Shown here: positions 62,906-63,237 of the stretch, piece after piece
How positions within the stretch are numbered: position 1 is the first letter of the stretch
How the letters are laid out: the number at the start of each line of letters is the position of its first letter
NCBI GenBank assembly: GCA_947623175.1
Contig: CANQGK010000005.1
Location: 39,702 to 103,701 of the forward strand
Source of the DNA: an uncultured Clostridia bacterium
GTDB lineage: Bacteria > Bacillota > Clostridia > Oscillospirales > Acutalibacteraceae
DNA: 64,000 nt
Direction: 5' to 3'
Notes under the pieces: model-generated
Database searches by the model: none
What the model was told of the DNA's origin: nothing
The model's input: only the letters and a program-made list of their open reading frames with translations
Made by a program: the position numbers and the translations under genes

Positions 62906-62933
62906 TGACTACATAATTTATATTATGTAGTCA
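62906..62933. repeat. Candidate recombination site, left copy
   Basis: TGACTACATAA-TTTATA-TTATGTAGTCA. Confidence 0.9.
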
Positions 62934-62959
62934 AATAAGGCGCCCGGGGATAAAAAAGC

Positions 62960-63002
62960 GGAACGCGGGAGCAAAAAACGGTGGTTTTTGCGGAGGCGTT
63001 CC
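62960..63002. other. Long hairpin inside the putative invertible segment
   Basis: GGAACGC..GCAAAAA..TTTTTGC..GCGTTCC nested inverted repeats. Confidence 0.7.
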
Positions 63003-63064
63003 GAGGAATTTACGGATTTATTATGTGATTGTTTTGTAAATTTGTAAAAACAGGCGCGGAAATT

Positions 63065-63105
63065 AAGCCGGAAAAAAATTTGTTTTTTCGCCGGCTTGGT
63101 TTTTA
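63065..63105. terminator. Terminator-like hairpin inside the putative invertible segment
   Basis: AAGCCGG-AAAAAA..TTTTTT-CG-CCGGCTT followed by GGTTTTTA. Confidence 0.7.
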
Positions 63106-63147
63106 TGCAATAAATTTACAAAATTTTGAATTTTTTTGTAATTTTAC

Positions 63148-63176
63148 TTGCAAAAGTTATATTGCTGTGATATAAT
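63148..63176 (+). promoter_or_regulatory. Sigma-A-like promoter inside the putative invertible segment
   Basis: TTGCAA-17 bp-TATAAT. Confidence 0.8.
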
Positions 63177-63209
63177 CACCTATGTAATAAGTGCGACAGC
63201 ATTTGGAGT

Positions 63210-63237
63210 TGACTACATAATATAAATTATGTAGTCA
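63210..63237. repeat. Candidate recombination site, right copy (exact reverse complement of left copy)
   Basis: TGACTACATAA-TATAAA-TTATGTAGTCA. Confidence 0.9.

Follow-up and report, generated by a model that had tools for sequence, protein, structure and literature searches.

A candidate recombinase-linked invertible promoter near a surface-protein gene in an uncultured Clostridia bacterium

Sites, recombinase and promoter at the locus

The DNA studied here, referred to as the window, is a stretch of 64,000 nucleotides from contig CANQGK010000005.1 (C5) of an uncultured Clostridia bacterium of the Acutalibacteraceae. Close to its right end lie two 28-bp sites that bracket a short segment with a predicted promoter, followed by a gene for a tyrosine recombinase (Table 1). 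Both sites have an 11-6-11 layout in which arms forming perfect inverted repeats surround an asymmetric 6-bp core (TTTATA/TATAAA). By direct reading, the distal site is TGACTACATAA-TTTATA-TTATGTAGTCA and the proximal site TGACTACATAA-TATAAA-TTATGTAGTCA, its exact reverse complement, and the inverted identity amounts to 29 bases with one flanking base included. Since the core is asymmetric, the site pair is inverted. Sites, spacing and layout were exactly as described in an earlier note on this DNA, and the intervening 276 bp, stated there to be free of open reading frames (ORFs), indeed contain none at a threshold of at least 60 aa. The window displays one of the features of an inverton, namely inverted sites around a short segment with a predicted outward promoter. 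A search for the 28-mer allowing up to 3 mismatches returned 3 matches in the 2.38-Mb genome and none for a control pattern, a result beyond chance. No match was obtained when positions 60000-64000 were searched against Rfam.

The 257 residues of the recombinase that are present match the Phage_integrase domain PF00589 (90.7 bits) and the N-terminal SAM-like domain PF02899. The catalytic residues R114, K138, H201, R204, H227 and Y236 are all in place, identifying the protein as a tyrosine recombinase. The best NCBIfam models were XerA, XerD and XerC, with scores of 139, 112 and 111 bits, all far below the respective equivalog cut-offs of 220, 330 and 335 bits; XerC-like, XerA and XerD proteins were the closest solved structures in the PDB, and XerH was also matched. 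These sub-cut-off scores, together with the occurrence of several sites with different cores per genome, speak against a XerC/XerD-dif resolution system. Models of fim-type DNA invertases of the tyrosine type yielded 29.5 and 26 bits (cut-offs 221 and 222), and the integron integrase model yielded 56.9 bits (cut-off 265), which argues against either assignment; an attC array was not looked for. The recombinase had been described as abutting the right-hand site. The adjacency holds, but the gene does more than abut: its final codons, ACT ACA TAA, coincide with the proximal site's outer arm, and because the TAA stop (63227-63229, minus strand) forms part of that arm, gene and site overlap. As the right edge of the window is the end of contig C5, the gene is cut at its 5' end (base 64000). 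Contigs C2, C45 and C30 also terminate within the N-terminal part of near-identical recombinases, indicating that the gene is multicopy and that the assembly breaks there.

The promoter proposed earlier, TTGCAA-17-TATAAT, is present and its hexamers match at 10 of 12 positions, although hexamers alone are weak evidence because the region contains 5 promoter-like matches where 2.7 are expected. The predicted promoter points at the recombinase and is OFF as assembled. On the other side, beyond the distal site, the first gene encountered on the minus strand codes for a protein of 469 aa whose features are a signal of the SipW-dependent type, a camelysin-like N-terminus and a GLUG motif. Its start codon lies 1004 bp from the distal site, and no minus-strand terminator-like site was found between the two.

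Table 1. Features of the candidate cassette and its surroundings, numbered from the first base of the window
Feature	Position	Strand	Description
Likely target, 469-aa surface protein	60492..61901	-	TIGR04088, PF12389 and PF07581, all above curated cut-offs
Repeat-rich stretch	62093..62857		142-nt and 100-nt repeats; between distal site and target gene
Distal recombination site	62906..62933	+	Outer arm 62906-62916, core TTTATA 62917-62922, inner arm 62923-62933
Putative invertible segment	62934..63209		276 bp
Predicted sigma-70-type promoter	63148..63176	+	TTGCAA-17-TATAAT, extended TG; 34 bp from proximal site, towards recombinase 3' end
Intrinsic-terminator-like hairpin	63205..63247	+	Proximal site and flanks, 17-pair stem then T run, z-score -5.4
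Proximal recombination site	63210..63237	-	Inner arm 63210-63220, core 63221-63226, outer arm 63227-63237 (coding)
Tyrosine recombinase, XerA/XerD-like	63227..64000	-	5'-truncated; PF00589, PF02899, NCBIfam and PDB matches, catalytic residues

The interspersed repeats of the repeat-rich stretch carry the motif GCCTCCCTTGCCTAAAGGGAGG, and related copies occur on contig C16, which also encodes another protein with a SipW-like signal.

Related loci in Clostridia

Relatives of the recombinase were collected by a scan of a genome collection, and the downstream flank of each was scanned for the arm pattern. Eighty related recombinases were found, nearly all in Clostridia records, and most of those with enough flank display the two-site layout just 3' of the recombinase gene. 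Spacing between the sites was mostly 180-340 bp, and homologous cassette segments measured about 110-390 bp. In 17 loci the site has the same start point with respect to the end of the gene and carries the stop codon, while in most others it begins 7-90 bp past the end of the gene match. Sixteen genomes other than that of Hungatella hathewayi WAL-18680, described below, carry 1 to 11 members.

We then compared the cores within each locus. A match in 63 of 63 loci was set aside, as the cores had served in choosing those pairs; the unbiased count came from sites picked on their arms alone in 36 distinct loci. In all 36, the two cores were exactly reverse-complementary, with 32 distinct cores represented. 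Randomly re-pairing the loci in 10,000 permutations gave at most 8 full core matches, a comparison that, like the Fisher value given below, overstates the evidence somewhat because loci from close relatives and paralogous loci are non-independent. Strand exchange within the core depends on matching of this kind, which would not arise from two terminators. This bears on the reading that the 28-bp palindromes serve solely to terminate transcription, or as palindromes bound by a protein, and take no part in recombination. The proximal site with its T run does score as an intrinsic terminator. However, a T tail is missing from the ON side of the distal site, the loops of unrelated hairpins need not match as the cores do, and at the level of the family the reading is contradicted by the inverted segments described next, so that we regard it as the least probable of the alternatives, with hardly any weight left to it.

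Both orientations of homologous segments were found among the relatives. In the assembly of Anaerotruncus colihominis JM4-15, contig L132 (1011 bp) and the terminal part of L137, a large contig, share 257 bp that are 100% identical in inverted orientation between flanks of 99-100% identity; the corresponding locus of strain DSM 17241 (L085) has the orientation of L132. Likewise, two loci from metagenome-assembled genomes (L069 and L073) differ by a 280-bp stretch inverted at 98.9% identity between collinear flanks. In the latter pair the inner arms had moved and the outer arms had stayed, as expected for an exchange at the core, and this locates the exchange to the middle of the site. A comparison of orientations in related genomes had been proposed in the earlier note; no homologue of the window segment itself was found in the 69 other genomes of the genus. 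At L137, a third site with an identical core is present next to the A. colihominis switch as the result of a tandem 288-bp duplication.

In most loci a promoter was located 25-90 bp from the site end, and its direction was scored as OFF in 47 loci, ON in 6, both in 3 and unclear in 7. A terminator-like structure occurred on the recombinase side in 24 of 62 loci as opposed to 4 of 62 on the gene side (Fisher p 2.4e-5). The genes that the promoters of relatives would drive include those for SipW-type signal peptidases and SipW-dependent (matrix) proteins (e.g. L058, L068, L074, L086 and L134), chemotaxis receptors (MCP) and CheW (L081, L092 and L100), as well as dockerin proteins, leucine-rich repeat (LRR) proteins, and response regulators or GGDEF proteins. 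The segment at L096 has promoter-like sites at both ends, and either orientation might drive a surface-type ORF of 1537 aa (open-ended).

Four relatives resided on putative viral contigs, and two of these were identical, orientation included; this lends no support to a phage origin. These four, the two near-identical copies of the recombinase in the genome and the contig breaks within the recombinase gene could be taken to mean that the locus is the remnant or end of an integrating mobile element and the site its attachment site. Against this, the sites form an inverted and not a direct pair, the recombinase is never part of the DNA that they enclose, the whole family has the site in a fixed place with respect to the recombinase 3' end, and viral-contig matches are limited to those four; we therefore hold a mobile element to be very improbable.

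The conserved layout in dozens of relatives, the covariation of the cores and the presence of both orientations support the earlier proposal of an invertible promoter flipped by the neighbouring recombinase; the OFF state, the stop-codon overlap, the terminator reading of the proximal site, the likely target and the family are additions to that note. We concluded that invertible promoters linked to recombinases form a real family here, to which the window contributes one member. The family is widespread in gut Clostridia, and almost all of its switches have a recombinase gene of their own alongside.

Cassettes in the same genome and in Hungatella hathewayi

A third identical site is located on contig C4 (L012, C4:115540-116490) beside a recombinase copy that is 99% identical. 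The match between C4 and C5 spans from about 63131 to the window end, and the C4 copy is without a distal site. The C4 recombinase with its single same-core site adjoins an IMP-dehydrogenase-like gene and is a possible recombination partner for the window sites. On C5 itself, a paralogue at 14139 (L014, C5:9000-20000) has three sites with the core ACGGCA, two direct and one inverted, so that inversion or a 113-bp deletion are both possible; its promoter is ON towards a set of genes encoding AMP-binding, PLP-decarboxylase and MBOAT proteins. Two further inverted pairs, each with the 3' end of a recombinase gene, are positioned at contig ends: one at C1:207002 (core TCCGTA) before a gene for a 131-aa membrane protein, with the promoter scored OFF, and one at C36:17978 (core TCCCCA) before a gene for a 907-aa dockerin protein, with the promoter OFF as judged by eye.

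The largest number of cassettes was found in Hungatella hathewayi WAL-18680, where the recombinase search gave 40 matches and the site-pattern search 48, compared to 2 for the control. Recombinase and proximal site occurred together in 36 of the 38 regions examined (L175-L212), a signal peptidase gene in 33 and a homologous surface-protein gene in 34. A distal site with matching core was readable in 30 cassettes, 29 of them OFF and one ON; since distal sites were found there using the core, this core matching provides no independent support. When sites were chosen on the arms alone in the first 20 regions, 15 gave perfect core matches; among the five that remained, the core led to one more distal site, and four were unreadable, with stretches of N after the site. 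In most of these cassettes the switch is followed by a signal peptidase I gene and then a gene for a secreted surface protein of one family, and a GLUG motif was present in the one tested. Strict orthogonality of cores is ruled out, as 23 cores are distributed over 36 Hungatella cassettes and one core is common to the window and C4.

Several observations weigh against reading the window locus as a recombinase-linked invertible promoter. The target gene lies 1 kb from the distal site across repeats, while targets of most relatives start within about 100 bp. The window segment is available in one orientation only, and in JM4-15 L132 and L137 could be two near-identical loci arising from a duplication instead of one flipped locus. 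As related loci and paralogous cassettes are non-independent, the permutation is indicative and not a strict probability. The 5' end of the recombinase is missing in the window, its intactness resting on other contigs. Finally, the OFF state prevails overwhelmingly in the assemblies, which could mean that switching is rare or that some of the cassettes are locked.

The last point, seen in 47 of 63 loci overall and in 29 of the 30 readable Hungatella cassettes, is compatible with a locked or decaying switch, that is, a window copy that once flipped and is now fixed OFF, or whose promoter is silent. The distant target and the lack of a distal site in the C4 copy would fit such decay. In the window, by contrast, the sites are identical over 28 of 28 bp, the core is intact, the catalytic residues are present and the promoter occupies its canonical position; a locked switch is in our judgement unlikely, yet it is the most serious of the alternatives.

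Another possibility is that the sites are inverted in trans by a different recombinase, either the same-core paralogue on C4 or the host XerC/XerD. Near-identical paralogues have TTTATA as their core too, so the enzyme at work could come from a gene elsewhere. In addition, compared with what we take to be the E. coli dif sequence, the window site matches at 17 of 28 positions, 16 of them within the central 17, leaving that part one base off dif. However, the sites of relatives are physically linked to the window recombinase family, their cores vary freely, unlike dif, and the scores with the XerC and XerD models fall far short of the cut-offs. What we assume to be the Firmicutes dif consensus was not found in the genome within 3 mismatches. 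Action in trans thus appears unlikely as well, by a little more than a locked switch.

Known systems and proposed mechanism

Recombinase-linked invertons in gut bacteria, Clostridia included, are an established finding (PMC11892184), and the mechanism considered here is of a known kind. The passages of that paper describing hCom2 inverton group 139 (32 of 33 members from Clostridia) link it to a tyrosine recombinase, invertase group 35, and state that two examples of about 255 bp, in Clostridium sp. D5 and Intestinimonas butyriciproducens, flip in culture; flipping is also reported with surface attachment. Like the window cassette, these are short Clostridia invertons beside a tyrosine-type recombinase, and the window family, with its site motif ACNACATAA-N6-TTATGTNGT, is probably the same family, as compared by description. 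In contrast, core, stop-codon overlap and terminator side are absent from the main-text passages describing group 139.

Other switches share part of this organization. E. coli fimS with FimB/FimE and upaE of uropathogenic E. coli (UPEC; PMC6083910) likewise have a promoter on a segment of about 300 bp, one or more dedicated adjacent tyrosine recombinases and a surface structure as output, whereas the window recombinase belongs to another sequence family and its sites are longer, dif-like and overlap the recombinase gene. The RecV switches of C. difficile (Cdi1, Cdi4 and others; PMC5903667) are a further case of clostridial phase variation by a tyrosine recombinase, with surface, motility and signalling targets. 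RecV serves several switches, whereas in the window family, set apart by description, each switch has a recombinase of the family beside it. The same paper places invertible sites in Clostridia near signalling and chemotaxis genes, in agreement with the targets in relatives. In Mycoplasma, a Xer-like recombinase, Xer1, switches the Vpma surface-protein family (PMC2268961); there, one recombinase shuffles a gene cluster, while the window family consists of dispersed cassettes, each with recombinase and promoter switch. Finally, Xer/dif systems (XerA, XerC/XerD, XerH) share the 28-bp 11-6-11 site with a near-dif central sequence, and XerA, XerC-like and XerD proteins are the nearest structures, but the window family has many sites per genome, freely varying cores, inverted pairs and scores below every Xer equivalog cut-off.

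Literature searches on the site sequence, and on SipW/TasA with promoter inversion, gave no relevant paper among the matches listed. In the parts of the literature covered, no description was found of the stop-codon overlap, of a terminator role of the site or of the Hungatella expansion; judged from sequence, the anatomy of the cassette and its amplification look new.

Taken together, these results make it very probable that the window carries a phase-variation cassette in which an invertible promoter is flipped by the recombinase and controls a surface-protein gene. We infer that the window locus inverts, that its promoter is active, that the 469-aa protein is the target and that the adjacent enzyme is the actor. 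In the proposed mechanism, the XerA/XerD-like recombinase would bind the two inverted dif-like sites just 3' of its own gene, and strand exchange within the core would invert the segment with its outward promoter. In the OFF state the promoter is directed at the 3' end of the recombinase gene, and RNA of the proximal site would act as a terminator, so that the transcript would end at once. After inversion to ON, transcription from the promoter would pass the distal site, where there is no T tail, and go on towards the surface-protein gene. The recombinase itself should be unaffected, since its stop codon is in the outer arm, outside the exchanged DNA.

More tentatively, and with a likelihood we place somewhat short of even, the family may constitute a distinct class of self-contained Clostridia cassettes with one recombinase per promoter. 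In some members, the window included, a site in the recombinase stop codon would double as the OFF terminator. Varying cores would partly insulate the cassettes from one another, and amplification would have produced a library of independently switchable surface-protein operons (36 in Hungatella) instead of dependence on one master invertase. This raises a testable question, whether a recombinase is restricted to its own core or whether same-core cassettes cross-talk. If the family works as proposed, a sequence rule (dif-like arms and matching cores, 3' of one recombinase family) would find phase switches of gut Clostridia without reads, and surface, biofilm-matrix-type and chemotaxis genes would be linked with many of these switches. 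The expansion in Hungatella suggests that a gut commensal may possess a large, individually switchable surface repertoire.
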